Source: an uncultured Alphaproteobacteria bacterium
GTDB taxonomy: Bacteria > Pseudomonadota > Alphaproteobacteria > HIMB59 > GCA-002718135
DNA length: 50,440 nucleotides
Assembly (NCBI GenBank): GCA_902575815.1
Contig: CACGTA010000007.1
Coordinates: 1-50,440, forward strand
Direction of reading: 5' to 3'
The notes under the pieces are model-generated. The model did not search any database, had not been told where the DNA came from, and was given only the letters and a program-made list of their open reading frames with translations. Positions 20,430-42,771 of this stretch are shown here, piece by piece; the first letter of the stretch is position 1; every line of letters begins with the position of its first letter. The translations under genes and the position numbers were made by a program.

Positions 20430-20434
20430 GCATT

Positions 20435-22784: not shown

Positions 22785-22828
22785 TAAAAATATATATATA
22801 ATTTGAACAGTTAAAAATAAACAAAATT

Positions 22829-23653: not shown

Positions 23654-23699
23654 TAAATTTATTTATAAATTTTAGCTGTAAATATATTTGATAATAAAT

Positions 23700-23721
23700 A
23701 AGCTTAGTAATTAAGCTTTTT
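23700..23721 (+). terminator. Possible weak terminator after PanB-like gene 1
   Basis: A 7 bp inverted repeat (23700 to 23706 with 23712 to 23718) followed by a short T-run on the plus strand. It lies 47 nt after the PanB-like stop and overlaps the last codons of the convergent ATPase gene. The stem is short and AT-rich, so the call is weak. Confidence 0.3.
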
Positions 23722-24451
23722 CAATAGCACCTGTAATTAATGCAGTGACTTCTTCTGGTGAACTTTCTTTAGCTAGTTTATTTGCAACTAACTGTCCTCT
23801 TCTCAGTACTGCAATTCTATCGCTGACAGCAAATACATCTGGCATTCTATGACTTATGATTACTACTGCAATACCTTGATTTTTTAGCTGTTTAATTAAT
23901 TCGAGTACTTCAGCAACCTGTCTAACACTAATAGCAGCTGTAGGTTCGTCAAGTAATACAACTTTAGCTTTTGATAATTTTGTTCTACCAATTGCAACAG
24001 CCTGTCTTTGACCACCAGACATCATTTTAACTTCTTCATCTGGTAATGTTTCAGATTTAAGCTCTTTAAATATATTCTTTGCTCTTTTAAACATCTCTGC
24101 AAAATTTATAATTTTTATTAATCCAAAATTTCTTTTAATTTCTCTAGTAAGAAAAATGTTTGAGGCAGCAGTTAAATTATCGCATAAAGCTAAATCTTGA
24201 TAAACAACTTCTATGCCCTTATCTCTAGCTTCCATTGGTTTTGAGAATTCAACTTTTTGATTTTCAAAGTTTATTGTTCCAGATGATTGCTTAAAGTTAC
24301 CTGCAATAATTTTAATTAAAGTAGATTTTCCCGCACCATTATCTCCCATTAATCCTAAAACTTCACCTGATCTCAAAGATAGTGAAACATTATCTAAAGC
24401 TTTGATAGCTCCAAAACTTTTAGAAATATTATTTAATTCTAAAATCTCCAT
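23711..24451 (-). CDS. CUT2-type sugar ABC transporter ATPase 2
   Basis: A 246-residue single nucleotide-binding domain. Walker A is GDNGAGKSTLIK, the signature is MSGGQRQ, Walker B is VVLLDEPTAA and the H-loop is ISHRM. I chose the ATG at 24451, which overlaps the permease stop as ATGA, over a TTG one codon upstream. It is the third gene of the binding protein-permease-ATPase operon that starts at 26437. No enzyme gene follows it on the same strand. Confidence 0.92.
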   Translation of the reverse strand: MEILELNNISKSFGAIKALDNVSLSLRSGEVLGLMGDNGAGKSTLIKIIAGNFKQSSGTINFENQKVEFSKPMEARDKGIEVVYQDLALCDNLTAASNIFLTREIKRNFGLIKIINFAEMFKRAKNIFKELKSETLPDEEVKMMSGGQRQAVAIGRTKLSKAKVVLLDEPTAAISVRQVAEVLELIKQLKNQGIAVVIISHRMPDVFAVSDRIAVLRRGQLVANKLAKESSPEEVTALITGAIEKA

Positions 24452-25443
24452 CAATCCTCTTTTGGTCCACCCGAATTTGATTTGAAAGTAACATTTGAAT
24501 TTATTACTACTGCTAAAAAAATAATTATGCCTTTTACAACTTTATTTAAATCTGGATCTATTCCCCAATGTATTAATCCATTACTTATCATTGATATAAA
24601 TACACATCCGAGTAATGTACCTGTCATTGTACCTACGGCACCTGCAAGTGCTGTTCCACCAACAACAACTGCAGCTATAACGTCAAACTCCATTCCATCT
24701 GCTAAATTTGCGTTGCCTGATGATACCCTAGCTACAAATAATATTCCAACTATAGCTGAGAAAAGACTAGTTCCTATTAAAGCTAAAATTTTTACTCTAT
24801 CGACATTAATTCCAATATTTCTTGCTGCTTTTGGATTACCACCAACTGCATAAAAATTTGTTCCAGTAACAGTATACTTACTAGCGAACCAAAATATTAA
24901 AAAAGCTCCCAACATTATCCATGTAACTGTAGGTAAACCTAAAATATCTCCTCCAAAAAAATACCTAAACTCTTTATTACTTATTGCTAATGGTCTTCCT
25001 TCAGTAACAAAAAGTGAATAACCTCTAAGAGCGCTCCACAATGCTAATGTAGTAATGAATGTAGGTATAAATAATTTAGTTCTCGCAATACCTATAAAAT
25101 AACCTAGTAAAATACCCCATAAAATTACAATAGTTGCTGATGTAAAGTAGCTAAAGTCATACCACTTAATTAAAATAACAAAAAATAGACCTGACCAAGC
25201 AACTGACGGCCCAACACTAATATCTATTTCTCTTGTTATGAGTACAAATGTCATAGGAAAAGCTATTAAGCCTACATAGGAAGCACTTCTTAAAATACTT
25301 GTGAAATTTCTTTGAGTAAAAAAATTTTCAGTTGTAAATGAAAACAATAACAACACCAATATCAATGCAATAAGTAGGCCTATCTCATGGAGATTACTTA
25401 TTTTTATTTTCTTTTTAGATTTTATTATTTCGTTTTCTGTCAT
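24451..25443 (-). CDS. CUT2-type sugar ABC transporter permease 2 (RbsC family)
   Basis: A 330-residue RbsC-type membrane permease with TREIDISVGPSVAWSG early, the YAVGGNPKAARNIGI loop, and AAVVVGGTALAGAVGT near the C-terminus. The ATG at 25443 (MTENEIIKS) is preferred; the frame stays open upstream through a hairpin to a TTG at 25518 inside the binding-protein gene, which would add 25 unlikely residues. The ATG lies only 3 nt beyond the U-run of that hairpin and has no separate Shine-Dalgarno. Its stop overlaps the ATPase start. Confidence 0.9.
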   Translation of the reverse strand: MTENEIIKSKKKIKISNLHEIGLLIALILVLLLFSFTTENFFTQRNFTSILRSASYVGLIAFPMTFVLITREIDISVGPSVAWSGLFFVILIKWYDFSYFTSATIVILWGILLGYFIGIARTKLFIPTFITTLALWSALRGYSLFVTEGRPLAISNKEFRYFFGGDILGLPTVTWIMLGAFLIFWFASKYTVTGTNFYAVGGNPKAARNIGINVDRVKILALIGTSLFSAIVGILFVARVSSGNANLADGMEFDVIAAVVVGGTALAGAVGTMTGTLLGCVFISMISNGLIHWGIDPDLNKVVKGIIIFLAVVINSNVTFKSNSGGPKED

Positions 25444-25446
25444 AAG

Positions 25447-25474
25447 AAAAAGGGGTATCACTAAGATACCCCTT
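25447..25474 (-). terminator. Intergenic hairpin with U-run between SBP 2 and permease 2
   Basis: A 10 bp inverted repeat (25450 to 25459 and 25465 to 25474, loop of 5) lies 9 nt after the binding-protein stop and ends in five T residues on the minus strand, immediately before the permease ATG. It repeats the arrangement seen in importer 1 with an unrelated stem sequence. Confidence 0.8.
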
Positions 25475-25483
25475 ATAATTTTA

Positions 25484-26437
25484 TTAATCGTATCCTCTTT
25501 CAGATAACCAAGTATCAATAGCTATCTTATCAATTGAAGTGAATACTTTTGTAGGTGTCAATTGAACATATTCATCAATTGCTTCACCTTTAACAGCTTT
25601 TAAAGCTGCTCTCATTGCTCCTGCTCCCATATCTCTTGGGAATTGTGAATTAACTGCTAATAAAATTTCGCCATCACTAACAAAATTCATTAATTCTGCA
25701 GTTGCATCGGTTCCCATAACATATGTTTTACCAATTTGACCGGCTGCAAGAACAGCATTAACAGCTCCAATTGTTCCACCCTCATTGGCTGCATACATTA
25801 AGTTGATTTCAGGATTTGCAATAAGCATATCCGTTCCAACTTGCGTTGCAACATCATTTGAAAATGCTTCTTGATTGTTAACAACTTCAAAGTTCACTCC
25901 TGTTGATTTTAATCCATCAATAAAGCCATCTTCTCTTTCCTGACAAGCTTCATATCTATTACAGTTATGAATTCCAATTTTAAGATCAATTCCTGCTTTA
26001 ATTGCCCAGTTACCAGCAATAATACCAACTGGATAACCTAATTCTCTCTGACTTGTAGTTACGAGTGCGTATGCAAGTCTTTTAGCATCTTCATCATTTA
26101 AGCAAGTATTATAGCAAACTACAGGAACTCCTGCTTCAGCTAGTCTTTCAACTGCGGCAACAGATGATTCTGTAGATACAGGTGACATTATTACAACATC
26201 AACACCGGTAGCAAGAAGTGTATCTATAAACTCAGCTTCCCTCGCAACATCACTTTGAGAGTTTGCGCCAGTAAGCTCAATACCTTCTTCTTCTCCAGCT
26301 TTTTCAATCCCATATTTAATTTCTCCAAAGAAACCTGCGGTATCAAGATATAAAGCACCTACTTTAAGTGCATTAGCTGAGAAAGAAAAAGTTATTAAAG
26401 AAATAGCCGAAGCTATTATTATAAAAAATTTTTTCAT
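25484..26437 (-). CDS. CUT2-type sugar ABC transporter periplasmic binding protein 2
   Basis: A 317-residue type I periplasmic binding protein. Residues 1 to about 23 are a signal peptide ending in SANA. The mature region opens LKVGALYLDTAGFFGEIKYG, contains GVDVVIMSPVSTESS and GVPVVCYNTC, and ends in a typical C-terminal lobe with VMGTDATAE. It has four cysteines (CYNTC and CNRYEAC), suggesting disulphides in the periplasm. It has a perfect AGGAGG ribosome site and a hairpin after its stop. The ligand is unknown and differs from that of binding proteins 1 and 3, judging by sequence. Confidence 0.9.
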   Translation of the reverse strand: MKKFFIIIASAISLITFSFSANALKVGALYLDTAGFFGEIKYGIEKAGEEEGIELTGANSQSDVAREAEFIDTLLATGVDVVIMSPVSTESSVAAVERLAEAGVPVVCYNTCLNDEDAKRLAYALVTTSQRELGYPVGIIAGNWAIKAGIDLKIGIHNCNRYEACQEREDGFIDGLKSTGVNFEVVNNQEAFSNDVATQVGTDMLIANPEINLMYAANEGGTIGAVNAVLAAGQIGKTYVMGTDATAELMNFVSDGEILLAVNSQFPRDMGAGAMRAALKAVKGEAIDEYVQLTPTKVFTSIDKIAIDTWLSERGYD

Positions 26438-26441
26438 TATT

Positions 26442-26447
26442 CCTCCT
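26442..26447 (-). promoter_or_regulatory. Consensus Shine-Dalgarno of binding protein 2
   Basis: AGGAGG on the minus strand, 4 nt before the ATG at 26437. It sits in a 124 bp gap that also holds the terminator of importer 3. Confidence 0.8.
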
Positions 26448-26511
26448 AATTAATAAATCTTAATTTAAGGAAAAAATAAAATATGTATATATAAAAGTTA
26501 AATTTAAATAT

Positions 26512-26541
26512 AAAAAAAGGCCGCAATCTGCGGCCTTTTTT
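26512..26541 (-). terminator. Intrinsic terminator of importer 3 operon
   Basis: A GC-rich stem (26518 to 26525 with 26529 to 26536, loop of 3) is flanked by A7 on one side and T6 on the other, so it could work in either direction. It lies about 20 nt after the stop of binding protein 3 on the minus strand and separates importer 3 from importer 2. Confidence 0.88.
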
Positions 26542-26561
26542 AATTTAGAAGTATTTGAATT

Positions 26562-27479
26562 CTACATAAAGTCAGCAGCGTTTTCCTTAGTAACTAATAC
26601 TGTTCCAGTATCAATATTGTCAGGAATACTTTCACCATTAGCTAATTTAAGTGCATTTTCTACACCCATATATCCCATATTATATGAGAATTGAGCTATA
26701 GTAGCTGACATTTCACCAGCCATTACACTTGCAGCAGCATCAGGGTTAGCATCAAATCCAACAACTACAACATCATCTAGCATATCAGCATTTTTTAATG
26801 CTTGGATAGCACCTAGACCCATATTATCGTTAGAAGCAAAGATTGCTTTTAGATTTGGGTTACCAGTGATGATATCTTCAGTTACTGACATACCTTGTGC
26901 AGTATCCCAGTTAGCTGGAAGTTCAGCAACAATGTTCATGCCACATGCTTCAAGACCTTTGTGTGATCCTTCAGCTCTGTGTTGACCAGTAGTTTGCGTG
27001 ATCATTCCTTGAAGGATTGCAACATCAGAACCACTTGGAACATTATCGCAAATGTATTGAGCAGCTAAAGCAGCGCCATTGATATTGTTTGTACCAATGA
27101 AAGTCACACCTTCATTAATTCCATTAGTATCAATGTATACAACTGGAACACCTGAAGCCATTGCATCATCAAGAATTGGTGCAACCGCGTTAGGGTCAGT
27201 TGGTGCAATCGCTATACCGTCTACACCTTTAGCAATTTGGTCTTCAATTTGTGCTACCTGAGCCATAACATCACTCTCTTGTGGTGGTGAAAGGATAATA
27301 AGGTTTACACCTAATTCTTCAGCAGCATCTTTAGCACCAGCTTCAACTGAAGCCCAAAAAGGGTTTCCAGCACCTGGTCCTTTAGTACTTAGCATTATTG
27401 TTTTTGCATGTGAGCCTGCTAAAAGACTACCTGAAAAAAACAATACAGAAGTAGTAATTATAGAAATAACAAATTTCAT
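26562..27479 (-). CDS. CUT2-type sugar ABC transporter periplasmic binding protein 3
   Basis: A 305-residue RbsB-like binding protein. The signal peptide covers about residues 1 to 22. The mature part opens TIMLSTKGPGAGNPFWASVE and has GVDGIAIAPTDPNAVAP, GVPVVYIDTNG, the IFASNDNMGLGAIQAL segment and VVGFDANPDA. These are strong ribose/inositol/rhizopine-type binding-protein features. Unlike importers 1 and 2, this gene is last in its operon, after ATPase and permease, and is followed by a strong terminator. An 87 bp gap before it could hold its own promoter. The upstream IolD-like gene suggests a cyclitol ligand, as inference. Confidence 0.92.
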   Translation of the reverse strand: MKFVISIITTSVLFFSGSLLAGSHAKTIMLSTKGPGAGNPFWASVEAGAKDAAEELGVNLIILSPPQESDVMAQVAQIEDQIAKGVDGIAIAPTDPNAVAPILDDAMASGVPVVYIDTNGINEGVTFIGTNNINGAALAAQYICDNVPSGSDVAILQGMITQTTGQHRAEGSHKGLEACGMNIVAELPANWDTAQGMSVTEDIITGNPNLKAIFASNDNMGLGAIQALKNADMLDDVVVVGFDANPDAAASVMAGEMSATIAQFSYNMGYMGVENALKLANGESIPDNIDTGTVLVTKENAADFM

Positions 27480-27483
27480 TTTT

Positions 27484-27489
27484 CCTCCT
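27484..27489 (-). promoter_or_regulatory. Consensus Shine-Dalgarno of binding protein 3
   Basis: AGGAGG on the minus strand, 4 nt before the ATG at 27479, as in the other two binding-protein genes. Confidence 0.8.
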
Positions 27490-27566
27490 AAAATTTTTTT
27501 TAAACATTAATCAAAAATGAAATCTAATCAAGTGACTGTTTGTCAGAAAGTAGTTATTTTTTAATA

Positions 27567-28574
27567 TTATGTTCTGGTCGCAAGTTGTCTTCTTAGAACA
27601 TCGATATAAACAGCCAAAATAATAATTGACCCAATAAGAACTTGTTGCCAGAAAACACTGACATTCATTAGATTTAGACCATTTCGGAGTATACCCATAA
27701 TCATGACTCCAGCAAATACACCTAAAACAGTTCCTCTACCCCCAAAGAAGCTTGCTCCACCTATAATGACTGCTGCAATTGCATCTAGCTCAGATTGTAA
27801 ACCAGCATTTGGATAAGCGGAATTTGTTCTTCCAGCTAAAATTAAACCTCCAATACCAGCCAAGAAACCACAAAGGGTGTAAACTATGATCAAAATTCGA
27901 TCTACGTTAATACCTGCTGCCCTAGCTGCTCCTGGGTTGCCTCCAATCGCATAAATCCATTTACCTATTCTTGTATGATTTAAAAATATCCAAAAGATAA
28001 AAAATATTACAATCATTAAAATTAAACTTGTGGGTATATACTCTCTAGCGCCTTCTCCAAAAATTACATCTAGTTTAATTTTACCATTTCCTATAACTCT
28101 AATCTGTTCAGCAAAACCTGTTATTGGCACTCCTCCAGAAATAAGGTTTCCAATTCCTCTAAATATGTACAGCGTTCCTAACGTCATAATAAACGGATGA
28201 GGCATTCGAAGTAAGGTAATGCCAATACCATTAAACATACCACACAAAAATCCAATTGCTGGTGCAACTAACATGACAACGTACCAAGGCATTCCTGCCT
28301 TCGAAGCAATAGCGAGTCCCATTAATGATAACATAATAATTGAACCGACTGATAGATCTATACCTGCAGTTACAATGACCATAAAGACACCAAGCGCTAA
28401 CATAGACTGCCAAGACACTTGTTTAAAAATATTTGTTACATTTCTCCATGATAAAAATACATCAGGTTGCAACAAATGTAGGACAGCAATCATTATTAGG
28501 ATCAGTAATAAGATTCCATATCTCTCAAAAAAAGGAATAAGTCTGACAAATAAAGATTCTTGATTCTTATCCAT
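27567..28574 (-). CDS. CUT2-type sugar ABC transporter permease 3 (RbsC family)
   Basis: A 335-residue RbsC-type permease with TAGIDLSVGSIIMLS, the GKWIYAIGGNPGAARAAGI loop and AAVIIGGASFFGGRGT near the C-terminus, with about eight to ten membrane spans. I chose the ATG at 28574, which shares one base with the ATPase stop (TAATG), over an ATG eight codons upstream inside the ATPase gene. It is the middle gene of ATPase-permease-binding protein, an order different from the other two importers. Confidence 0.9.
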   Translation of the reverse strand: MDKNQESLFVRLIPFFERYGILLLILIMIAVLHLLQPDVFLSWRNVTNIFKQVSWQSMLALGVFMVIVTAGIDLSVGSIIMLSLMGLAIASKAGMPWYVVMLVAPAIGFLCGMFNGIGITLLRMPHPFIMTLGTLYIFRGIGNLISGGVPITGFAEQIRVIGNGKIKLDVIFGEGAREYIPTSLILMIVIFFIFWIFLNHTRIGKWIYAIGGNPGAARAAGINVDRILIIVYTLCGFLAGIGGLILAGRTNSAYPNAGLQSELDAIAAVIIGGASFFGGRGTVLGVFAGVMIMGILRNGLNLMNVSVFWQQVLIGSIIILAVYIDVLRRQLATRT

Positions 28575-29320
28575 TAATCTTTTTTCCCCATGATCCATCC
28601 AATCACTTCGTCTCTTGAAGTATTTTTTAATTCTGACTCAGCAAAATTAGTTCCTTGAAACAATGCCATTACTCGATCACAAACAGTAAAAATATCGTCC
28701 ATTCGATGACTAATTACTATTACACTAACACCTAATTTTTTTAGATTTAAAATTAAATCAAGAACCTTTCCAACTTCTTTAACAGCAAGTGCTGCGGTTG
28801 GCTCATCCATTAATACAATTTTTGCATTAAAAGCTGTAGCTCTAGCAATTGCAACTGCTTGTCTTTGTCCACCTGATAATTCTTCAACCTTTTGATCAGC
28901 ACTCTTTACGTTTATTTTTAATTTTGCAAGATGCTCTTCGGTTAACTGTTTTCTTTTTTTATGATCTAAAAAATTAAAAGGACCAACTTTTCTTGTTGGT
29001 TCTCTTCCTAGAAAAATATTATCACCGATAGGTAGATTACCAGCTAGTGCTAAATCTTGATAGACCATTTCTAAGCCCAAATTTTGAGAGTCTCTGGGAC
29101 TATTTAAAGTTACTTTTTCTTTATCAAAAAAAAGAGATCCTTCACTTGGTTTATATAATCCTGATAAAACTTTCATTAATGTAGATTTACCAGCACCATT
29201 ATCACCGACGACACCAAGTACCTCGCCCTTATTTAAATGAAGATCTACATTTTGAAGGGCTGTAATAGTACCAAAAAATTTTGAGACTGATTTAGCTTCC
29301 AGTACTAAATTATCTGACAT
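28574..29320 (-). CDS. CUT2-type sugar ABC transporter ATPase 3
   Basis: A 248-residue single nucleotide-binding domain with Walker A GDNGAGKSTLMK, signature LSGGQRQ, Walker B IVLMDEPTAALAV and H-loop ISHRM. It is closest by eye to ATPase 2 of this window. It lies 21 nt after a D-2-hydroxyacid dehydrogenase gene and is coupled to its permease by TAATG, so the importer is probably transcribed with the IolD-like and dehydrogenase genes upstream. Confidence 0.92.
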   Translation of the reverse strand: MSDNLVLEAKSVSKFFGTITALQNVDLHLNKGEVLGVVGDNGAGKSTLMKVLSGLYKPSEGSLFFDKEKVTLNSPRDSQNLGLEMVYQDLALAGNLPIGDNIFLGREPTRKVGPFNFLDHKKRKQLTEEHLAKLKINVKSADQKVEELSGGQRQAVAIARATAFNAKIVLMDEPTAALAVKEVGKVLDLILNLKKLGVSVIVISHRMDDIFTVCDRVMALFQGTNFAESELKNTSRDEVIGWIMGKKD

Positions 29321-29341
29321 AAATGTGTTTTTAAATAAAAA

Positions 29342-30370
29342 TTAATTAATATCAACTGGTTTTGATCGTAAATATTTAACAGTTTCTCTCTCAGCTTTTT
29401 TACATAATTTAGGGGGCAGACCCTTCGAGATAAGTTTTAAATCTTGAATTACTAATTCGCCCATCTCTTTAAATGCGCTGTCTAATGCACCGGCTCTATG
29501 TGGAGAAAAAATTACATTTTTGAGTTTTCTTAATTTATGATTTTTAGGAAATGGTTCTTGTGGAAAAACATCAATAGCAGCAAACACATTTCTATTTTTT
29601 AAAAAATTAAAAAAATCATCAAAATTTATTATTGCTGCTCTACTCATTAATACAAACACTGATCCATCTTTTATTAATTTAAGCTTAGAAGAATTAATCA
29701 TGGATTCATTAGAAGAAGTAATTGATGCGAGTACATAAATGATGTCAGCATTTTTAAGTAACGAATTTAAATTAGTTGGCTTAACATCAAATTTTTCAAT
29801 TTCTTTATTTGGGATCCAGGGATCATAAGCCATAATATTATTAGAAAATGCTTTTAGTATAGGTGTAAGTGATTTAGCTAAATCACCAAATCCAATTAAA
29901 CCAAATGTTTTATTTTTTATTAAAAAATTGTTCTGACTTATTGCACCACCGTATTTTTCTTTTTTTAAAATAAAGTCTGAGTGAGCAATGTGAATACTTC
30001 TGGCTATCGATAAAGTAAGGCCCATTGCCATTTCAGCAACAGGTTGAGCAAACACAGGAGATGTTGCTAAAACATGTATTCCTTTTCTAAAACAATAATC
30101 GTAATCCATATTGTCCATAAAATTGCTCTCTACATTAAATATTGCTTTAAGTTTTGTAGATTTAGAAATCAAAGATGAAGGTAAATTTGGTTGCCCAAAA
30201 ATATAATCTGCCTTTAGTAAATTTTTTTCATAAAAATTATTTTTATTTTTATTTGGAGCAGTAATGAGATTAAAATTTTTTTTTAAATATTTTAAATTTT
30301 CTTTAGAAAAAAGTAGGTCCATTGTTCTTGGATATGGATCTACTAAAATTATTGGTTTGTTTTGATTCAT
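29342..30370 (-). CDS. D-isomer-specific 2-hydroxyacid dehydrogenase family protein 1
   Basis: A 342-residue NAD-dependent dehydrogenase of the D-2-hydroxyacid family. The Rossmann motif is GLIGFGDLAKS, where the third glycine is replaced. The catalytic Arg, Glu and His are most likely in LMSRAAI, FPQEPF and FSPHRAGA. It acts on 2-hydroxy or 2-keto acids in the cytoplasm. It lies 31 nt downstream of the IolD-like gene and 21 nt upstream of ATPase 3, so it probably serves the pathway of the sugar carried by importer 3. The exact substrate cannot be told. Confidence 0.85.
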   Translation of the reverse strand: MNQNKPIILVDPYPRTMDLLFSKENLKYLKKNFNLITAPNKNKNNFYEKNLLKADYIFGQPNLPSSLISKSTKLKAIFNVESNFMDNMDYDYCFRKGIHVLATSPVFAQPVAEMAMGLTLSIARSIHIAHSDFILKKEKYGGAISQNNFLIKNKTFGLIGFGDLAKSLTPILKAFSNNIMAYDPWIPNKEIEKFDVKPTNLNSLLKNADIIYVLASITSSNESMINSSKLKLIKDGSVFVLMSRAAIINFDDFFNFLKNRNVFAAIDVFPQEPFPKNHKLRKLKNVIFSPHRAGALDSAFKEMGELVIQDLKLISKGLPPKLCKKAERETVKYLRSKPVDIN

Positions 30371-30401
30371 ACAAATTTAATTATTAGGAAAAAATTTTAT
30401 T

Positions 30402-32246
30402 TTATACGCCTTTACGTTGTTTATTTTTTCCTTCTAAAAATTCATTAAGAGCTGATTTCTTTCCTTCGGTATTATCCACTTCAAGTGTTGGACTTTCCCA
30501 AAAAGCTGTACCCTCTAACCATTCATAACCATCTGTTTTCATAGAAATAACATACGTTTTGTTTGATTCTTTTGCTCTTTTAAAAGCGGCCTCTAACTCT
30601 GAAATAGATTTAACAGTCTCACCATTTGCCCCCATACTTTTTGCGTGAGCTTCAAAATCTACAAACTGTACATTTGTTGCTCTTGCAGCATTGAGATTGC
30701 AAAGATATTCATTCCCACCTTTAGCTAGTTGCAATCTATTAATAACCATATGACCACCATTATCACAAACAACTATAATTAATTTTTTATCATATAAAAC
30801 TGAACTGTAGATATCGCTATTTTGTAAGAGGTATGAACCATCGCCTACAAATACAATTACATCTTGTTCAGGTTTTGCCATTTTGATTCCAAGCGCACCT
30901 GATATTTCATAACTCATGCAACTAAATCCCCATTCAGTTTCAAAAGTATTAAGTTCTTTAGGTTTCCATATTTGAACTACCTCGCCAACTAACCCTCCAG
31001 CTGCAGTGACTACGATATCTGATGGGTCTGAGTTTCTATAAACTGCACCTACAGCATGAGCATAGGATGGTAATTCTTGATTTGTTGGTCCACTTTCTTT
31101 GGCAACATATTCATCCCATTTATTTCTTTCCTCAATTGAACGCTGGTACCAATTATCTGGCGCTTTCCAATCTCCTAATGCTTTTGATAATTCTTGAAGT
31201 CCAATTTTTGCATCGCTTACAACAGGAGTAGCGCGATGTTTTGTAGTATCAAATCGTGAAGTATTTATTGATACAAGTTGAAAATTTTCATTTTCAAAAT
31301 TGGTCCAAGAGCCGGTTGTAAAGTCTCCTAACTTTGTTCCCACAGCTAGTGCTAAATCTGTATCAGTAGCAAGGTTGTTAGATGAGCCCTCTCCTAAGCA
31401 TCCAATTGCACTTATATAATAGGGATCATCTTTATTCATACAACCAATACCCATTACAGTTGCAGTAACTGGAATATTATGTTTCTTTGCAAAAGCAGAA
31501 ATTTCCTCTTCTGCTTCTGAATATAAAACACCTCCTCCAGAGATAATAATAGGTTGTTTAGATTTTTTTAATTTATCAGCTGCCTTTTGTATTTGATTTG
31601 GATCGGGATAAATTCTTCTAATTTCATGAATTTTTTCTTCAAAAAAGATTTTAGGATAATCATAGGCTTCTCCTTGAACATCTTGAGACATAGAAATTAC
31701 TGCTGGGCCACAATCTGCAGGGTCAAGCATCACATTAATTGCTTGAGGTAAAGAAGTTAAAATTTGTTCAGGTCTGGTTATTCTATCAAAATATCTTGAT
31801 ACAGATTTAAATGAATCATTTTGAGTTTCTGATGGAGAGTTAAAATGTTCAACTTGCTGTAAAACTGGGTCTGGAAAGCGACTAGAAAATGTATCGCCAG
31901 GTAAAAGCAAAATTGGAAGTCTGTTGCTTAATGCAACTGCTGCTGCAGTAACCATGTTAGTTGCGCCTGGTCCAACTGAAGAAGTAGCAACAAATATTTG
32001 TTTTCTTCTTTTTGCACGAGCATACGCAATTCCAGTTAAGGCCATGTTTTGCTCATGATGGCCTCTGTATCCGGGAAGTTCATTTTGATATTCTTCCATA
32101 GCCTGTCCAATACAAGCCACATTTCCATGACCATAAATACCGAAAGCACCTGGAAAAAGTGGCTCTTTTTTTCCATTAATCAAAATTTTTTGCATTGTTA
32201 AATATTTAATTAATGCATGTGAACAAGACATTCTAACTGTTTTCAT
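30402..32246 (-). CDS. iolD: Thiamine-diphosphate hydrolase, IolD-like (3D-(3,5/4)-trihydroxycyclohexane-1,2-dione hydrolase)
   Basis: A 614-residue ThDP enzyme that lines up with IolD, which opens the ring of the diketo-inositol intermediate in inositol breakdown. Shared stretches include a GHGN segment near the N-terminus, SVGPGATNMV, LPGDTFSSRFPDPVLQQVE, RYFDRITRPEQ and SQDVQGEAYD. The ThDP/Mg motif is GDGSYLLQ with VCDNGG downstream, and a Glu in GHHEQNMA is the likely cofactor activator. I start at the ATG at 32246 because a GGA-containing site precedes it; a TTG at 32261 is the alternative. No iolB, iolC or iolE is present in the window, so the use may differ from canonical myo-inositol catabolism. 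Confidence 0.82.
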   Translation of the reverse strand: MKTVRMSCSHALIKYLTMQKILINGKKEPLFPGAFGIYGHGNVACIGQAMEEYQNELPGYRGHHEQNMALTGIAYARAKRRKQIFVATSSVGPGATNMVTAAAVALSNRLPILLLPGDTFSSRFPDPVLQQVEHFNSPSETQNDSFKSVSRYFDRITRPEQILTSLPQAINVMLDPADCGPAVISMSQDVQGEAYDYPKIFFEEKIHEIRRIYPDPNQIQKAADKLKKSKQPIIISGGGVLYSEAEEEISAFAKKHNIPVTATVMGIGCMNKDDPYYISAIGCLGEGSSNNLATDTDLALAVGTKLGDFTTGSWTNFENENFQLVSINTSRFDTTKHRATPVVSDAKIGLQELSKALGDWKAPDNWYQRSIEERNKWDEYVAKESGPTNQELPSYAHAVGAVYRNSDPSDIVVTAAGGLVGEVVQIWKPKELNTFETEWGFSCMSYEISGALGIKMAKPEQDVIVFVGDGSYLLQNSDIYSSVLYDKKLIIVVCDNGGHMVINRLQLAKGGNEYLCNLNAARATNVQFVDFEAHAKSMGANGETVKSISELEAAFKRAKESNKTYVISMKTDGYEWLEGTAFWESPTLEVDNTEGKKSALNEFLEGKNKQRKGV

Positions 32247-32327
32247 CTGTTCCTTTCCCAAAAAAAATTGATATTATTATAATAAAAAAATAATTTAAAG
32301 AGTTAATCAATTTATTTTTTTAATATT

Positions 32328-33311
32328 ATGGAATATAAATCATTTATGAAAGTTGGTGTTGTAGGAGAAATTCATACTTGTGGATATGAAATCTTTAATA
32401 ATAATAATATAGAATATTTTGTTACTAATAATAAAGAAGAAGATCAACTTACTAATGAATTATCTGATGTAGATGGAATTGTTGTTAGAACAGTCAAATT
32501 AAGTAAAAAAGTATTATCAAATGCAAAAAATTTAAAAGTTGTTGCAAGACATGGAGTTGGTTATGATAACGTCGATTACAATTTCTTAAATGAAAACAAA
32601 ATAGCTTTAGCTATAACAGGAACAGCTAATGCTGTAAGTGTTTCTGAGCATGTCATGACAATGATGCTTTGCTTAACTAAAAATATATATGAATCAGATA
32701 AATTGGTTAAACTTAATAAATTTAAAGAAAAAGCAAATCTTCCAAATTTTTTTGAATTATATCAAAAAAAAATTCTTATTTTAGGATTGGGTAGAATTGG
32801 AAAAGAATTAGCTAAGAGATGCACAGCTTTTGATATGGAAATTTATATTCATGATCCATTTATTTCAGATGATGAAATCCGTTCTATGAATTATATTCCT
32901 ACAAACAAAGAGAGTGGATTTAAAATTGCTGATTATATAAGTATTCATTTGCCTATTAACTCAGAAACAAAAAATTTGATTTCTTATGAACAATTTAAAT
33001 TATTTAAATCAAATTTAATTCTAATAAATACTGCACGCGGAGGTATTGTTAATGAAAATGCTTTATTTGATGCTTTAAAGAATAAGAAAATTCATGCTGC
33101 TGGATTAGATGTTTTCGAAACTGAACCGCCAATAAAAAATCACAGATTATTTTCTTTACAAAACACTTTGCTAACCCCTCATAATTCAGCACTTACACTA
33201 GAATGTAGAAAAAGAATGGCTGTTGAGTCTTGTGAAAATGTTTTTAATTTTTTAACTAAAAGTAAAAATTTAAATAAAAGTAATATAATAAATTTAAATA
33301 TTATAAGTTAA
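32328..33311 (+). CDS. D-isomer-specific 2-hydroxyacid dehydrogenase family protein 2 (SerA-like)
   Basis: A 327-residue NAD-dependent dehydrogenase resembling the catalytic part of 3-phosphoglycerate dehydrogenase, without ACT domain. ARHGVGYDNVD, the Rossmann motif ILGLGRIGKELAKR, NTARGGIVNE (catalytic Arg), DVFETEPP (Glu) and TPHNSALT (His) are all intact. It is divergent from iolD across 81 bases and its 3' end overlaps the convergent Rieske-like gene by 4 nt. An ATG at 32346 giving MKVGVVGEI is a plausible alternative start. Given its place among sugar-acid genes, a catabolic 2-hydroxyacid substrate is as likely as serine synthesis. Confidence 0.86.
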   Translation: MEYKSFMKVGVVGEIHTCGYEIFNNNNIEYFVTNNKEEDQLTNELSDVDGIVVRTVKLSKKVLSNAKNLKVVARHGVGYDNVDYNFLNENKIALAITGTANAVSVSEHVMTMMLCLTKNIYESDKLVKLNKFKEKANLPNFFELYQKKILILGLGRIGKELAKRCTAFDMEIYIHDPFISDDEIRSMNYIPTNKESGFKIADYISIHLPINSETKNLISYEQFKLFKSNLILINTARGGIVNENALFDALKNKKIHAAGLDVFETEPPIKNHRLFSLQNTLLTPHNSALTLECRKRMAVESCENVFNFLTKSKNLNKSNIINLNIIS

Positions 33312-33628
33312 ATATTTAAGTAAAGATTTCCATCTTCTTCTGTAACATCAAATATTTTTAATGGAATTTGTTCTAAATCAGATACAGAGTCTCCAGATAC
33401 AATACTAAATTTATTACCGCATGATGGGCACTCTAGTTCTTCACCTTCAATACTAGATTCACTTAATAAAGTTTTTTCAGCACAAGGGCAATTTCCTTCA
33501 GTTGCAAAAAAGCCTGATTCGAGTCTATAAATTGCATAATTTATATCTTCATATTCAAAATTTTCTACTGAACCAATGTCAATATCATCAACTTCACCTA
33601 TAAAGATTGGCTCTATTTCATCATTCAT
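33308..33628 (-). CDS. Rieske-fold ferredoxin, MocE-like, with four-cysteine ligand set
   Basis: A 106-residue protein that follows the Rieske ferredoxin pattern of MocE type: NYAIYRLESGFFATEGNCPC, an ECPSCGNKFSIVSGD second loop, and a C-terminal IFDVTEEDGNLYLNI strand. The two ligand loops normally read C-x-H and C-x-x-H; here they are Cys47-Pro-Cys49 and Cys67-Pro-Ser-Cys70, so both His are Cys at the usual spacing. A [2Fe-2S](Cys)4, mononuclear iron or zinc site are all possible. It lies 60 nt after the FMN oxidase gene and could feed electrons to the island's di-iron or Rieske-dependent enzymes. No ferredoxin reductase gene is in the window. Confidence 0.75.
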   Translation of the reverse strand: MNDEIEPIFIGEVDDIDIGSVENFEYEDINYAIYRLESGFFATEGNCPCAEKTLLSESSIEGEELECPSCGNKFSIVSGDSVSDLEQIPLKIFDVTEEDGNLYLNI

Positions 33629-33688: not shown

Positions 33689-34843
33689 TTATCTGAATTT
33701 TAGATTTTTTCTTGTTAATTCTTTTACGTTAGAAACTCCCATTAATTTCATATCTCTTTCAATTTCATTACGTAAGTTAGATAAGCTTTTTTCAACTCCT
33801 TTTTGACCTCCAGCAGCTAAAGCATACAAATACATGCGTCCTCCAGAACATGCTTTTGCACCAAGCGATAATGCTTTTAAAACATGAGTACCTCTTCTAA
33901 TGCCTCCTTCACATATTACATCTATTTTATCTCCAACAGCATCAACAATTTCAGCTAATTGATCAAAAGGTGATCTTGATCCATCTAACTGTCGTCCTCC
34001 ATGATTTGAAACCATTATAGCTGAAGCCCCAACATCAACTGCTTTTTTTGCATCTTCCACTGACATAACTCCTTTAATTGCAAATTGGCGGCCCCACTCC
34101 TTATTAATATTTTCAACATCTTTCCAACTCATCGAATTATCAAGCATCTTTGTGAAATAATCACCTATTGTAGTCATTACTTTTGTGCCTTCACTTATAT
34201 GGTCTTTTAAGTTGCTTAATTCCCATTTGGGTTTTGTAAAATAATCTACTGCCCACTTTGGATGTAACATAAAACTTAGAACGCTATTGAGTTTAAGTTT
34301 CATTGGAATGGTAAAACCAGTATATAAATCTCTTTCACGATTTCCTCCAACGGCTGTATCTACTGTAACTGCCATTGCTTCAAAATTTGATTCTTTACAT
34401 CTTTCTATAAGAGCTTTGTTTAATCCTTTGTCTTTATGAACATAAAGTTGAAAAAGTTTTGGTGTTTTAACTAAATTTGATATCTCCTCTATACTTGCTG
34501 TACCTAAGGAAGATATTCCAAACATTGTGCCAAATTTTTCAGCAGCTTTTGCGACTCCAATTTCACCCTCATGATGAAACAATCTTTGAAGAGCAGTTGG
34601 AGCACAATACAAAGGGATATCTAATTTTTGTCCCATCACAGTTGTTGACATATCTACTTTATCAACACCACTTAAGACATTTGGAACTAAATCACAGTCT
34701 TCGTAAGCATCAGTATTTCTTTTATAAGTAATTTCATCATCAGCAGCGCCATCAATATAATGAAAAATGGGACTAGGAAGCCTCCTCTTTGCCAATTTTC
34801 TAAAATCTTTTACATTATGACAATTATTAATACTGCCGTACAT
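33689..34843 (-). CDS. lldD: FMN-dependent alpha-hydroxyacid oxidase/dehydrogenase, L-lactate dehydrogenase-like
   Basis: A 384-residue TIM-barrel flavoprotein of the LldD/glycolate oxidase family. SNHGGRQLDGSRSPFDQL holds the catalytic His and FMN-binding residues, MAVTVDTAVGGNRERDL is another signature, and CEGGIRRGTHVLKAL binds the flavin phosphate. It is last in a run of fuconate-pathway genes, where oxidation of L-lactate to pyruvate would finish the route. It is coupled to the FAH-family gene through TAATG. L-lactate specificity is inference from the context; other L-2-hydroxyacids are possible. Confidence 0.88.
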   Translation of the reverse strand: MYGSINNCHNVKDFRKLAKRRLPSPIFHYIDGAADDEITYKRNTDAYEDCDLVPNVLSGVDKVDMSTTVMGQKLDIPLYCAPTALQRLFHHEGEIGVAKAAEKFGTMFGISSLGTASIEEISNLVKTPKLFQLYVHKDKGLNKALIERCKESNFEAMAVTVDTAVGGNRERDLYTGFTIPMKLKLNSVLSFMLHPKWAVDYFTKPKWELSNLKDHISEGTKVMTTIGDYFTKMLDNSMSWKDVENINKEWGRQFAIKGVMSVEDAKKAVDVGASAIMVSNHGGRQLDGSRSPFDQLAEIVDAVGDKIDVICEGGIRRGTHVLKALSLGAKACSGGRMYLYALAAGGQKGVEKSLSNLRNEIERDMKLMGVSNVKELTRKNLKFR

Positions 34844-35691
34844 TAAGCTTGAATTGTTTTTTGCGTTTGTTCTCCTAAACCTTCAATACCTAATTTCATC
34901 ACATCACCTGCTTTTAAAAATACTTGAGGTTTCATTCCCATTCCTACTCCTGGAGGTGTTCCGGTAGAAATAATATCACCTGGCTGTAATGACATAAACT
35001 GACTTAAATAACTTATAAGAAAATTTACACCGTAGACCATTGTACTTGTTGATCCATTTTGCATCATTTTGCCATTTACTTCTAACCACATTTTAAGATT
35101 TTGTGGATCTGGCACTTCATCAGTAGTTACCAAATATGGACCTATTGGACCAAAAGTATCACATGACTTCCCCTTTACCCACTGACCTGAGTGTTCTATC
35201 TGAAATTCTCTCTCACTAAGGTCGTTTATCACGCAGTATCCAGCTATATGTGATTGTGATTCACTTTCTGTAATATATTTTGCTTCCTTTCCAATAATTA
35301 CTCCTAATTCCACTTCCCAATCAGACTTTACTGATTTTTTTGGAATTTCTACATCATCATTTGGACCAATAACAGCACTTGTTGCTTTAGCAAAAATAAT
35401 TGGTTCAGGAGGAACTTTTTGTCCTGTTTCTTCTGCATGATCAGAATAATTCAATCCAATACAAATAATTTTACCAATGCTTTCTTTACAAACACAAGGT
35501 GCAATACCATCATGATTATCTACTAATGGAAGAGATCCCAAATCAACTTTTTTAACCTCATTAAGTTTATCGATTGTTACATTTTTATTATCCCAATCTT
35601 TTACCAAAGAGGAAGCATCACGAATTTTTCCATCTTGATCTAAAATTCCAGGTTTAACTTCTTTTCCAATTCTATATCTTAAAGTTTTCAT
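34843..35691 (-). CDS. FAH-family hydrolase, probable 2,4-diketo-3-deoxy-L-fuconate hydrolase
   Basis: A 282-residue fumarylacetoacetate hydrolase family enzyme. GLNYSDHAEETGQKVPPEP, IFAKATSAVIGPND, the metal-binding Glu residues in DWEVELGVIIG and Asp in INDLSERE are present, with STGTPPGVGMG near the C-terminus. In the non-phosphorylating L-fucose pathway this family cleaves the diketo acid to pyruvate and L-lactate; the surrounding genes match that pathway. I chose the ATG at 35691, overlapping the SDR stop as TAATG, over an upstream start four codons earlier. The next gene is again coupled by TAATG. Confidence 0.85.
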   Translation of the reverse strand: MKTLRYRIGKEVKPGILDQDGKIRDASSLVKDWDNKNVTIDKLNEVKKVDLGSLPLVDNHDGIAPCVCKESIGKIICIGLNYSDHAEETGQKVPPEPIIFAKATSAVIGPNDDVEIPKKSVKSDWEVELGVIIGKEAKYITESESQSHIAGYCVINDLSEREFQIEHSGQWVKGKSCDTFGPIGPYLVTTDEVPDPQNLKMWLEVNGKMMQNGSTSTMVYGVNFLISYLSQFMSLQPGDIISTGTPPGVGMGMKPQVFLKAGDVMKLGIEGLGEQTQKTIQA

Positions 35692-36428
35692 TATAAAGTC
35701 CATCCTCCATCAATTAAATTTAATGTTCCAGTTACAAAATCTGACTCATCACTAGCTAAATACGTTGCAAGTGAAGCAATTTCTTCTGCTTGTGCCAACC
35801 TACCCATTGGTTGTCTGGCAATAAAATCTTCTCGAGCTTTTTTTGGATTATCAGCCATATTTACTCTACCTTCCCAGGATGGTGTTTCCACAGTTCCTGG
35901 AAGTATAGCATTACAACGAATTCCTTTTTTTACATAATCAGCTGCAAGAGCTTTAACAAAACCATTTAGTGCTGCTTTTGTTGTTCCATAAATAAATCTA
36001 TTAGGAACACCTTTAACACTTGAGGCTGCAGAAGAAACAACAATAATATTACCCTTTCCTTTGTCTAACATTACAGGAAGTAGATTATAGCTCATAAGAT
36101 ATGCCGAATATATATTTACATTAATCGATCGATGAAATTCTTTGTCATCACAATCCAATAATGTCCCATTATGAACAAAACCTACAGCATGAAAAAGAAT
36201 ATCGATAGAATTAATTGTAGAACAAAATTCTTCAACTGAATTTTTATTTGTAGCATCTAACTTGTGAGTTCGTATTGAATCATTTTCTTTACTTAATTCG
36301 TTTAGTTTTTCTTCATTAATATCAGTTGCAATTACAGAAGCGCCCTCTTTTGCAAACATTAGTGCTGTTGCTCTTCCAATACCTTGCGCGGCAGCAGTTA
36401 CAATTATTTTTTTATTTTTTAGTCTCAT
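35691..36428 (-). CDS. Short-chain dehydrogenase, probable 2-keto-3-deoxy-L-fuconate dehydrogenase (BDH2/DHRS6-like)
   Basis: A 245-residue SDR with TAAAQGIGRA at the nucleotide site, VIATDINEEKL, SSAASSVKGVPNR and YGTTK (catalytic Tyr and Lys), and CNAILPGTVETPS. These match the human BDH2/DHRS6 and bacterial 2-keto-3-deoxyfuconate dehydrogenase subgroup, including the unusual TAAAQGIG loop and the IDGGW C-terminus. It oxidises the 4-hydroxyl of the 3-deoxy sugar acid. The start ATG at 36428 overlaps the fuconate dehydratase stop (ATGA); an upstream alternative would overlap more deeply. Confidence 0.87.
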   Translation of the reverse strand: MRLKNKKIIVTAAAQGIGRATALMFAKEGASVIATDINEEKLNELSKENDSIRTHKLDATNKNSVEEFCSTINSIDILFHAVGFVHNGTLLDCDDKEFHRSINVNIYSAYLMSYNLLPVMLDKGKGNIIVVSSAASSVKGVPNRFIYGTTKAALNGFVKALAADYVKKGIRCNAILPGTVETPSWEGRVNMADNPKKAREDFIARQPMGRLAQAEEIASLATYLASDESDFVTGTLNLIDGGWTL

Positions 36429-37726
36429 TTTATATTTTTCCAATACTCCCCGTTGGGAAAAGAAAACTCATTAACAGACTTTTCTTTCATTTCAATAGAA
36501 TATCCGTAATCAAGTGGTGGCATATAATTACCATTTTGTACTTTACATGGATATATAAAATGCTCATGTAAGCTATCCTGATATTCTACTACTTTCTCAT
36601 TTTTTGAACCATTAATTAAAACATAATCAATCATACAAAGATGTTGAACATATTCACATAGACCAACTCCACCTGCATGAGGAAAAACTGGTACATTAAA
36701 TTTATGTGCCATTAATAATACTGTTATTATTTCATTGATACTTCCCAATCTGCAACTATCGATTTGACAAATGTTCATTGCACCAGATTCAAGAAACTGT
36801 TTAAACATGATACGACCACCACAAGCTTCACCAGTTGCAAGCCTAACATCTCCTACTTCTTTTTTTATTTTAGCAAAGCCCATAACATCATCTGGGCTTG
36901 TAGGTTCTTCTACAAAAAAAAGATTAAATTTTTTATATGCATTAATATGTTTTATCGATTGCTTTACACTCCATTGTTGATTTGCATCAACCATAATAAA
37001 ACAGTCGTCACCAATTGTTTTTCTAATAAGCTCAAGCCTTTTAACATCAGCATCAAGATCTAAACCAACTTTTATTTTAAAATGTTTCCAGCCTTTTGCC
37101 ATATATTCTTTACATAATTGAATTGTTTTTTCATCTGAATAACCAAGCCAACCCGCTGCAGTTGTATAAGAAGGGTAACCTTCATTTAGAATAGTATCAA
37201 TACGTTCTTGTTTACTGTTTTGCATTTTTTGAAGAAGTTTTAATGCTTCATCTGGTGTTAAGACATCTTCAATATATTTAAATGTTAACCAACTAAGAAT
37301 GGTTTCAGGTTCACTTTCAACAACAAATTTCCAAAGTGGTTTTTTATTTTTTTTTGCAATTAAATCCCAGAGACAATTAAAAATAGCTGCAACAGCCATG
37401 TGGACTACTCCTTTTTCAGGTCCTAACCAACGAAGTTGACTGTGATCTACACACTTAAACCAAAGTTTTCCTATATTATTCTCTAAATCATCTAATTGCA
37501 TATTTTCAAAAATAGGAAAAAAATGTTTTATACACTCAGCTACAATGTCGTTACCTTTACCAATAGTAAAAGCAATACCAAAACCTTTTAAATTTTCATT
37601 ATCGGTATAGGCAGTTACATAAGTTGCTGAATAATCTGGATCAGTATGTATAGCGTCGGAGCCAGTTAAATCTTTCGATGTTGGAAACCTTATATCCTCA
37701 ACTGTGAACTTTAAAATTTTACTCAC
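36425..37726 (-). CDS. fucD: L-fuconate dehydratase (enolase superfamily)
   Basis: A 433-residue enolase-superfamily dehydratase that turns L-fuconate into 2-keto-3-deoxy-L-fuconate. I used the GTG at 37726, one base after the preceding stop; the N-terminus SKILKFTVEDIRFPTS then aligns without gap to known FucD starts, while the alternative TTG at 37756 overlaps the upstream gene. Lys217 and Lys219 (FKIKV), Asp247 (MVDAN), Glu274 (VEEPTSPDD), Glu300 (ATGE) and His350 (FPHAGGVGLCE) are the expected catalytic and metal residues, each one less than in the Xanthomonas enzyme. Full-length similarity makes the family assignment strong. Confidence 0.92.
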   Translation of the reverse strand: MSKILKFTVEDIRFPTSKDLTGSDAIHTDPDYSATYVTAYTDNENLKGFGIAFTIGKGNDIVAECIKHFFPIFENMQLDDLENNIGKLWFKCVDHSQLRWLGPEKGVVHMAVAAIFNCLWDLIAKKNKKPLWKFVVESEPETILSWLTFKYIEDVLTPDEALKLLQKMQNSKQERIDTILNEGYPSYTTAAGWLGYSDEKTIQLCKEYMAKGWKHFKIKVGLDLDADVKRLELIRKTIGDDCFIMVDANQQWSVKQSIKHINAYKKFNLFFVEEPTSPDDVMGFAKIKKEVGDVRLATGEACGGRIMFKQFLESGAMNICQIDSCRLGSINEIITVLLMAHKFNVPVFPHAGGVGLCEYVQHLCMIDYVLINGSKNEKVVEYQDSLHEHFIYPCKVQNGNYMPPLDYGYSIEMKEKSVNEFSFPNGEYWKNIK

Positions 37727-37727
37727 T

Positions 37728-38834
37728 TTAACATTTTTTAAATGTTGAATTATCAATTAAGTCCCAATCTAGTTCTAATCCAAGACCAGGATTTGTTGGA
37801 AGGTGTGCAAATCCATTTTCAACCTTAATTGACTCTTTTAAACCAAAATTAAAATACTCGTATGGAACTAGCACTTCAAAAAACTCAGAATTTTTAATTG
37901 CTGCACAACAATGTAAATTAACTAACTCCAAAGGATGATAAATTGCTGTATGAATTTCACATTGAACACCAAAACTTTCAGCTAGATGGGCTGTCTTCAT
38001 AGTCGCAGTTATACCACCGCTCCATGAAACATCGGCCCTAACCATATCAACTACTCTAGTTGATATGCACTCTGCAACGCTGTATGGATGCTTTGCTATT
38101 ACCTCAGTTCCAATAATAGGAATATCCAATATTCTAGTAAGTTCTCTAAGATTATGAAAATTTTCATCGTGCAAAGGTTCTTCATACCAATGATAATTTA
38201 ATTTTTCTAACTCTCTTCCAAGTCTTAGGGCTTGTTCAAAAGTATAGGGCGCAACTGGATCACTCATTAGCTTGAAGTCATTACCAACAGCTTGTCTAAC
38301 TGCTTTATGGACTTCTAAATCAATATCAAAATTTCCTGGTGGGTGTATTTTATATGCTTGAAATCCTCTTTTTTTGTATTCCTGAGCTTCATTAACATAT
38401 TCATCAGGATTTTTTAAAAAAAGAGAACTTCCATAAATAGGAACTTTATCACGGTATGCTCCTAAATACTTATATAAGGGTTGATTTGCTTGTAAAGCTG
38501 ACAATAGCCAGCAGTTTATATCAAAAGGTCCATAGCTGTATATTGGTGCATGATACCATTGACGATCCGCCATACGATATTCATGCCAGTGTTTTTCTCT
38601 ATACAGAGGATCTTTACCTAAAAAAAAAGGTTTAAAAATAGAGTTTGCTATTTCACCAGCCATTTCGGCACCACGGCCAGCAAAACCAAAAGTTGAAGCA
38701 CTTAAGCCTTCATCAGTATGAAATGTTATTACCAAAAATTCTAATTCTGATTTTTTTCCATCTCGCATCTCAGAATCCTTCATAGCTGGACTATTATGAC
38801 GACACATACGAATTTCTATATCTTTTATTTTCAC
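37728..38834 (-). CDS. Mandelate racemase/muconate lactonizing enzyme family protein (enolase superfamily)
   Basis: A 368-residue enolase-superfamily protein, distinct from the adjacent fuconate dehydratase. Candidate catalytic residues are Lys162 and His164 in YKIHPPG, the metal ligands Asp192 (MSDPV), Glu219 (YEEP) and Glu244 (GTEVI), and Asp268 and His295 (EIHTA) at the far side of the barrel. A Lys-x-His in place of the Lys-x-Lys pair indicates a different acid/base chemistry from FucD. It is probably a sugar-acid dehydratase or epimerase; the substrate is unknown. It overlaps the CoA transferase gene by 4 nt and ends 1 nt before fucD. Confidence 0.85.
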   Translation of the reverse strand: MKIKDIEIRMCRHNSPAMKDSEMRDGKKSELEFLVITFHTDEGLSASTFGFAGRGAEMAGEIANSIFKPFFLGKDPLYREKHWHEYRMADRQWYHAPIYSYGPFDINCWLLSALQANQPLYKYLGAYRDKVPIYGSSLFLKNPDEYVNEAQEYKKRGFQAYKIHPPGNFDIDLEVHKAVRQAVGNDFKLMSDPVAPYTFEQALRLGRELEKLNYHWYEEPLHDENFHNLRELTRILDIPIIGTEVIAKHPYSVAECISTRVVDMVRADVSWSGGITATMKTAHLAESFGVQCEIHTAIYHPLELVNLHCCAAIKNSEFFEVLVPYEYFNFGLKESIKVENGFAHLPTNPGLGLELDWDLIDNSTFKKC

Positions 38835-41741: not shown

Positions 41742-42740
41742 TTATGCTGTTCTATTGGATTTAAATAACTTTTCGTGAGTTTTTTTTGTACCATCGTGGA
41801 AAGAACCAAACCATTTATCAAGCGGACTTGTTAATTCACCGTAATTACATTCAAAGTATTTATGATGTAAATAGTGAAAATATCCTGCTGAAGGAATAGA
41901 TTTTCCAGTTTTTGGATCAACAACTAATCTCTCATAGCCAGTATGACCTTTTTGAGCTCCTAAGCATGTGTGCAAACCTTGATAAACAAAATGTAAAGGT
42001 GTTGATGGAATAAAAAAATGAACAAGTATAGTACTTAGATATAAAAGGTGTTCAACTGGATGCATTGAAAGGCCTGACCAAGGACCAACATTAACATTTT
42101 TATGATGAAAAGAATGTATATGGTCGTAAAGTGGCTTCCAATGAATTAATCTATGAATGCAGTAGAAATGAACATGTTGAATAATTGGAATAAAAATAAA
42201 CAAAAGAACGCAATAGATTGCTACATAAGGGCTTGCTAACCAGTCTTTGATTGGAAATAACATATAATCATTAGCAAAGCACCATAACATTAAGGACTCA
42301 TAAGCACTCCAAATTGGCACAGCACTGAAGAGACTGAAAAACATATTTTCTCTTGTTTGTGTTCCAAAGAACCATTGTTTACCTTTACCAAGTGGTCTTA
42401 AATTGTATCTAAATTTATCACCTTGAGAATTATTTGTATGAAGGTGTAAATGCCACAAACCTGTATAGATAAAAAGGACTACAAAGTTTTTTATAAAGAT
42501 TATGGAAATCCAGCTTAGACTAAATGTTGATAATATCTCAAAAGAAGGGATTAAAAAGTAATAACATAAAAATGCAATTGCAAAATGGATTGCAGCCCAT
42601 GGAAAAATAAATCCATCAGGATAATTAAAGAGCCACTTCAAAAGTTCTATAGGCTTGGGTGGAAATGCAAAAAGAGGTTTATATTCTAGCTTACCTGGTG
42701 TCCAACCACCTCTAGCATCAACAAGTTCTTCTTTATCCAT
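41742..42740 (-). CDS. Sterol desaturase/fatty acid hydroxylase superfamily membrane protein
   Basis: A 332-residue membrane di-iron protein of the sterol desaturase/fatty acid hydroxylase superfamily, a different family from the two desaturases at 15.7 and 21.8 kb. Histidine clusters are HFYCIHRLIH (191 to 200), HIHSFHH (207 to 213), HPVEH (227 to 231) and HYLHH (289 to 293), with hydrophobic spans near 45 to 95 and 170 to 190. It inserts oxygen into an alkyl or sterol-like substrate in the membrane. It lies 31 nt after a PanB-like gene on the same strand; the other PanB-like gene also adjoins a membrane di-iron oxygenase. The substrate is unknown. Confidence 0.82.
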   Translation of the reverse strand: MDKEELVDARGGWTPGKLEYKPLFAFPPKPIELLKWLFNYPDGFIFPWAAIHFAIAFLCYYFLIPSFEILSTFSLSWISIIFIKNFVVLFIYTGLWHLHLHTNNSQGDKFRYNLRPLGKGKQWFFGTQTRENMFFSLFSAVPIWSAYESLMLWCFANDYMLFPIKDWLASPYVAIYCVLLFIFIPIIQHVHFYCIHRLIHWKPLYDHIHSFHHKNVNVGPWSGLSMHPVEHLLYLSTILVHFFIPSTPLHFVYQGLHTCLGAQKGHTGYERLVVDPKTGKSIPSAGYFHYLHHKYFECNYGELTSPLDKWFGSFHDGTKKTHEKLFKSNRTA

Positions 42741-42771
42741 AAGTATAGAAATAGCAATTTTTTTGCTAAAT

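Follow-up and report, generated by a model that had tools for sequence, protein, structure and literature searches.

The last gene of a non-phosphorylative L-fucose operon encodes a new variant of the Rieske fold, in which both ligand histidines are replaced by cysteine and which, by its ligands, is not a Rieske protein. It belongs to a conserved clade of Cys4 Rieske-fold proteins, and the best explanation that we can offer is that these serve as metal-binding electron carriers for the fucose operon, a reading to which we assign a probability of roughly 45%. The gene lies in the window (the whole stretch of DNA that was analysed, 50,440 nucleotides), which is contig C7 of a 1.07 Mb genome estimated to be 58% complete. 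Its product has the sequence MNDEIEPIFIGEVDDIDIGSVENFEYEDINYAIYRLESGFFATEGNCPCAEKTLLSESSIEGEELECPSCGNKFSIVSGDSVSDLEQIPLKIFDVTEEDGNLYLNI, with a pI of 4.05. The original prediction had placed the double His to Cys replacement here, and the replacement was confirmed together with the position, strand, length and motif of the gene.

The ligand pattern is C47-P-C49, 17 residues, then C67-P-S-C70. In the HMMER alignment Cys47 and Cys67 occupy the positions of the Rieske cysteines, while Cys49 and Cys70 fall on both histidines of CarAc and BphA3. The distance between the loops had been described as exactly that of Rieske proteins. This holds for the Rieske class, since BphA3 also has 17 residues there and aligns without a gap, but not for MocE itself, as MocE-type proteins, like CarAc, have 16. 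A shifted histidine acting as a hidden ligand was ruled out, because the window protein contains none.

The AlphaFold2 model, calculated from a 27-row alignment (AlphaFold does not place metals), has a pLDDT of 90 and a pTM of 0.78 and is that of a complete Rieske ferredoxin over residues 4–106. Rieske ferredoxins ranked at the top throughout the Foldseek search, with a TM score of 0.87 to CarAc, and also in VIA-align 2, with Z scores of 17–18 and an rmsd of ~1.5 Å over ~100 residues. The predicted fold is thus Rieske along the whole chain, as had been proposed, and no other fold came out. CarAc (1vck) and BphA3 (2e4p), likewise small and soluble, resemble the Cys4 protein in the whole fold and in the positions of the loops (Z ~17–18, 20–27% identity). 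What sets it apart from the Rieske-type ferredoxins, MocE included, is the presence of cysteine at both histidine ligands and a gene that adjoins neither an oxygenase nor a ferredoxin reductase.

The family models place the protein inside the fold and outside the named families. Its score against the Rieske domain PF00355 (24.4 bits) is above the gathering cut-off of 20.3; the ligand pattern of that domain, C-x-H-x15-17-C-x2-H, is replaced by C-x-C-x17-C-x2-C in 92/92 orthologous loci. The two C-x2-C knuckles of rubredoxins and zinc ribbons are also not what is found, the first loop being C-x-C in all of these loci. Against TIGR02377 (MocE) three orthologues score 33.6–35.6 bits, the window protein itself 35.6, where the cut-off is 136.15. 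The best NCBIfam match is TIGR02378, the NirD small subunit, at 40.9 bits, below its cut-off of 74.65. Membership of the MocE family was dismissed on this score and on context: the neighbours of the Cys4 gene encode an SDR, an FAH-family hydrolase and LldD, whereas MocD- and MocF-like genes flank a paralogue elsewhere in the genome. The alignment with MocE-type proteins that had been noted earlier therefore stands as homology, with a weak resemblance, but not as family membership.

The same 92 loci (60 orthologues from a scan of one genome per species and 32 loci from the genomes of the family, a few of them the same genome entered twice) comprise 61 distinct sequences with identities down to ~60%. 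Nine different residues occur between Cys47 and Cys49, and seven variants of the pair between Cys67 and Cys70, and Gly71 is Ser or Ala in three orthologues. Variable residues between invariant cysteines indicate that the motif is held by selection on the cysteines. All four cysteine codons are found as both TGT and TGC across the orthologues, and dN/dS values of ~0.02–0.17 point to purifying selection on the gene. Chance or sequencing error as the origin of the motif is excluded by the number of loci and by the codon variation. That the pattern might be an artefact of sequencing, assembly or reading frame has a negligible probability: the genomes are single-cell and metagenome assemblies, some of them chimeric (L070), yet nothing was found in support of an artefact, and the identical motif recurs in independent assemblies, with both Cys codons in use and a low dN/dS. 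We agree that each His to Cys change requires two base changes per codon, although the conserved clade makes the point moot. The expectation that an error was unlikely was thus borne out, and CxC/CxxC is kept without exception throughout a clade whose members in the same context do not carry C-x-H/C-x2-H.

Upstream of the Cys4 gene on the same strand lie genes for LldD, the FAH-family hydrolase, the SDR and two members of the enolase superfamily, one of which has an L-fuconate dehydratase as its nearest solved relative (Table 1). The FAH-family protein, whose best PDB relative is an L-2,4-diketo-3-deoxyrhamnonate hydrolase, scores 382 bits against NCBIfam NF053535, below the cut-off of 500, and hydrolases of its type yield pyruvate and L-lactate. 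The SDR has DHRS6 and bacterial SDRs as its nearest solved relatives. The PDB relatives of LldD are lactate and glycolate oxidases and flavocytochrome b2. Judging by these assignments, the operon would convert L-fuconate to 2-keto-3-deoxy-fuconate, then to 2,4-diketo-3-deoxy-fuconate and finally to pyruvate and L-lactate, and LldD would convert the lactate back to pyruvate. A non-phosphorylative fucose operon has been described in one AEGEAN169 clade (PMC11366302), and the family studied here may be part of the AEGEAN-169/HIMB59 lineage. The order SDR-FAH-LldD-Cys4 is kept in nearly all loci, and in nearly all of them the Cys4 gene starts 45–77 bp past the LldD stop codon on the same strand.

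Table 1. Positions of the Cys4 gene, its ligand loops, the neighbouring operon genes and the PanB-like/MocD-like gene pairs (window coordinates unless a locus is given).
Feature	Position	Strand	Remarks
Cys4 Rieske-fold protein gene	33308..33628	(-)	106 aa, net charge -22, His-free
First ligand loop, codons C47-P48-C49	33482..33490	(-)	C-x-C; C-x-H in Rieske proteins; aligned with CarAc and BphA3
Second ligand loop, codons C67-P68-S69-C70	33419..33430	(-)	C-x2-C; C-x2-H in Rieske proteins; aligned with CarAc and BphA3
LldD-type FMN-dependent L-lactate (2-hydroxy-acid) dehydrogenase	33689..34843	(-)	FMN_dh 433 bits; LldD models
FAH-family hydrolase, 2,4-diketo-3-deoxy-L-rhamnonate/fuconate hydrolase type	34843..35703	(-)	8gsr, E 2e-86
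SDR	35691..36443	(-)	PDB relatives 2ag5 (DHRS6), 8y11/8xwk
L-fuconate dehydratase (enolase superfamily)	36425..37756	(-)	PDB 1yey, E 2e-137; human ENOSF1 4a35, E 6e-146
PanB-like/MocD-like pairings	21756-23653; 41742-43623; L002 1-1806		

The surroundings of the operon are rich in related genes. Over positions 17688–32261 and 45674–50321, an IolD-type hydrolase gene adjoins it, more sugar-acid genes lie downstream, and several ribose-type ABC transporters are encoded; the window is densely packed with genes for the catabolism of sugars and inositol. In locus L070 (2–2233) IolD and FAH are fused in frame, probably a chimera of single-cell amplification, and the IolD region of L081 is also rearranged.

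LldD is the only redox enzyme of the fucose module that would be expected to use a one-electron carrier. We tentatively propose that the Cys4 protein, which is small, soluble and very acidic, carries single electrons away from the FMN of this neighbouring dehydrogenase. Cleavage of 2,4-diketo-3-deoxy-L-fuconate would supply L-lactate, LldD would oxidise it, the electrons of its FMN would pass to the Cys4 protein, and the latter would hand them on to the respiratory chain or to another reductase. The charges of the two proteins are complementary (-22 for the Cys4 protein; +6, with a pI of 8.8, for LldD), and the acidic carrier may dock on the basic flavoprotein. Flavocytochrome b2 offers a precedent for such a pairing, combining an FMN L-lactate dehydrogenase with a small one-electron acceptor, the cytochrome b5 domain; here, in contrast, the putative acceptor has the Rieske fold and forms a chain of its own. 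The stronger statement, that an all-cysteine Rieske-fold protein is the dedicated electron acceptor of a flavin L-lactate dehydrogenase in a clade of genome-reduced marine bacteria, we regard as rather unlikely. If true, it would mean that a ligand-switched Rieske lineage has taken up a redox role that has nothing to do with oxygenases or with bc complexes.

Among 110 genomes of the family, 84 have both LldD and the Cys4 gene and 22 have neither (Fisher p ~1e-18, uncorrected for shared ancestry). The four discordant genomes include two, G008 and G107, that are explained by contig ends, and two real exceptions: G109 has LldD without FAH and without the Cys4 gene, and G103, a MAG, has SDR-FAH-Cys4 but lacks LldD. 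FAH is absent from the tested genomes that lack the Cys4 gene, except G010 and G107, where contigs end beside FAH. The Cys4 gene is thus tied to the whole fucose module, and its occurrence matches that of the FAH module no less closely than that of LldD. As a separate observation, the LldD gene of G043 is split by a frameshift (L111, 1398–2553) and the adjoining Cys4 gene is intact.

The case of G103 speaks against LldD as the partner, as does LldD itself, which shows no sign of adaptation to a carrier. When enzymes with and without an adjoining Cys4 gene were compared, nothing convincing was found in loop or charge; LldD from G110, a genome of a sister family (80% identical), and from G109 (69%), both of which lack the Cys4 gene, does not differ in the type of loop and is about as basic. 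No Rieske neighbour was found beside relatives of LldD outside the family, even at 80% identity. Such a carrier might instead have its partner among the other enzymes of the sugar module, or in an oxygenase whose gene lies elsewhere. LldD does occur without the Cys4 gene, the Cys4 gene once occurs without LldD, and a MocF-like ferredoxin reductase is encoded in the genome (L002). We nevertheless consider a different partner improbable: the canonical MocD-MocE-MocF-like set of the genome clusters elsewhere, no conserved oxygenase gene was found beside the Cys4 gene across the loci, unlike the situation of ordinary Rieske ferredoxins, and the chemistry of the SDR and the FAH-family hydrolase needs no one-electron carrier.

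The two histidines make a Rieske centre high-potential and proton-coupled. Their replacement under strong selection provides a natural test of the fold's choice among [2Fe-2S], mononuclear iron and zinc, a range of candidate cofactors that the original prediction had rightly named. Very likely a metal centre of some kind is bound by the four cysteines, which lie at the tip of the fold. Rieske folds of the NirD type that have no ligands exist, and the Cys4 protein, with NirD as its best NCBIfam match, likewise has no normal ligand set; a decayed Rieske protein that has lost its metal is nonetheless very improbable, since a decayed site would lose its cysteines, whereas all four ligand positions here are invariant Cys with variable flanks.

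We put the chance of a [2Fe-2S](Cys)4 cluster at even, slightly favoured over a mononuclear site; a rubredoxin-like Fe(Cys)4 or Zn(Cys)4 site is given somewhat less than even odds. The C-x-C loop would suit a binuclear cluster better, and a CxxC plus CxC set binds [2Fe-2S] in anamorsin, CX8CX2CXC (PMC8251831). The closest engineered counterparts are variants of Sulfolobus solfataricus ARF (PMC2946596). In its H64C variant three cysteines and a single histidine hold a low-potential cluster; H44C by itself failed, and the H44C/H64C double mutant, whose C-x-C/C-x2-C pattern equals that of the Cys4 protein, was largely impaired in cluster assembly, which counts against the electron-carrier reading that we favour. 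In the Cys4 lineage, however, the pattern arose in nature and a whole clade has it fixed. By this analogy, the natural protein may either have solved what the ARF scaffold could not, or hold zinc.

The four cysteines may also bind one zinc or iron in a subunit that supports the SDR-FAH-LldD enzymes structurally or as a scaffold and carries no electrons, an alternative that we doubt but take seriously. The loops of the Rieske cluster are akin to those of rubredoxins and zinc ribbons, and ARF could be converted, as H44I/K45C/H64C, into a rubredoxin-like mononuclear Fe(Cys)4 protein; this variant, however, required C-x2-C on both sides, the first loop having been shifted to that spacing (PMC2946596), while the first loop here is C-x-C. 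Rubredoxin and the zinc ribbons LysW and Trm112 likewise place four Cys on two loops, the second being C-x2-C-G, and the C67-x2-C70-G71 half resembles a zinc knuckle. Weak matches to LysW (26.6 bits, cut-off 75) and Trm112 start at Cys47 and span both loops. These scores are far under the cut-off, the N-terminal 46 residues are left uncovered, and the fold matches are Rieske. That the gene tracks the FAH module and not LldD alone is consistent with a non-carrier subunit.

The lactate/pyruvate couple lies at about -190 mV, rubredoxin sites at about 0 mV, and all-Cys [2Fe-2S] clusters often at -250 mV or lower. On these values mononuclear iron would suit the job of a lactate acceptor better. Whichever metal is bound, the natural Cys4 lineage can be compared directly with the double mutant of ARF, in which assembly was largely unsuccessful, and appears to keep a metal site where protein engineers found assembly hard. 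The lineage also hints that the oxidation of L-fucose and L-lactate by marine bacterioplankton, in an iron-scarce setting, has a component so far overlooked.

Among the sampled genomes the Cys4 form seems to be restricted to the window's family, a group of ocean bacteria with small genomes, and rare cases elsewhere are possible. Profile searches of 385 alphaproteobacteria (E<=1e-18) and of 398 Pseudomonadota (E<=1e-9) found none outside the family. A DNA search of 319 genomes for the pattern G-x-C-x-C-x17/16-C-x2-C-G with Glu before the third Cys, slightly too strict given the Ser or Ala at position 71 of three orthologues, returned only the window and one unrelated match. In the literature, as covered by open-licence papers, no Rieske protein with only Cys ligands turned up that occurs in nature. 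All 34 canonical relatives that were read (21 MocE genes of the same order, with the paralogue of the window's genome counted among the 34, and 13 genes of other members of the phylum) have C-x-H-x16-C-x2-H, and no intermediate, C-x-C with C-x2-H or the reverse, was found among them. A tree built from 61 proteins places all Cys4 forms on one side of a branch of length 2.6 with support of 100/96; the tree rests on 107 columns and is rooted at the midpoint only, so that the Cys4 clade is not rooted and may or may not derive from the MocE of this order.

On a different contig of the genome that carries the window lies a canonical Rieske gene (CTH...CPMH), with desaturase-like and ferredoxin-reductase genes nearby. 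Its product scores 137.8 bits against TIGR02377, above the MocE cut-off. Together, the desaturase, the canonical Rieske ferredoxin and the ferredoxin reductase form a MocD-MocE-MocF-like set (L002 1–3288; G000:C5:64204-67491), which suggests that a methylated sugar or inositol is demethylated oxidatively. Genes of the ketopantoate hydroxymethyltransferase family (PanB-like, PF02548) lie beside MocD-like desaturase/fatty-acid hydroxylase genes three times in this genome.
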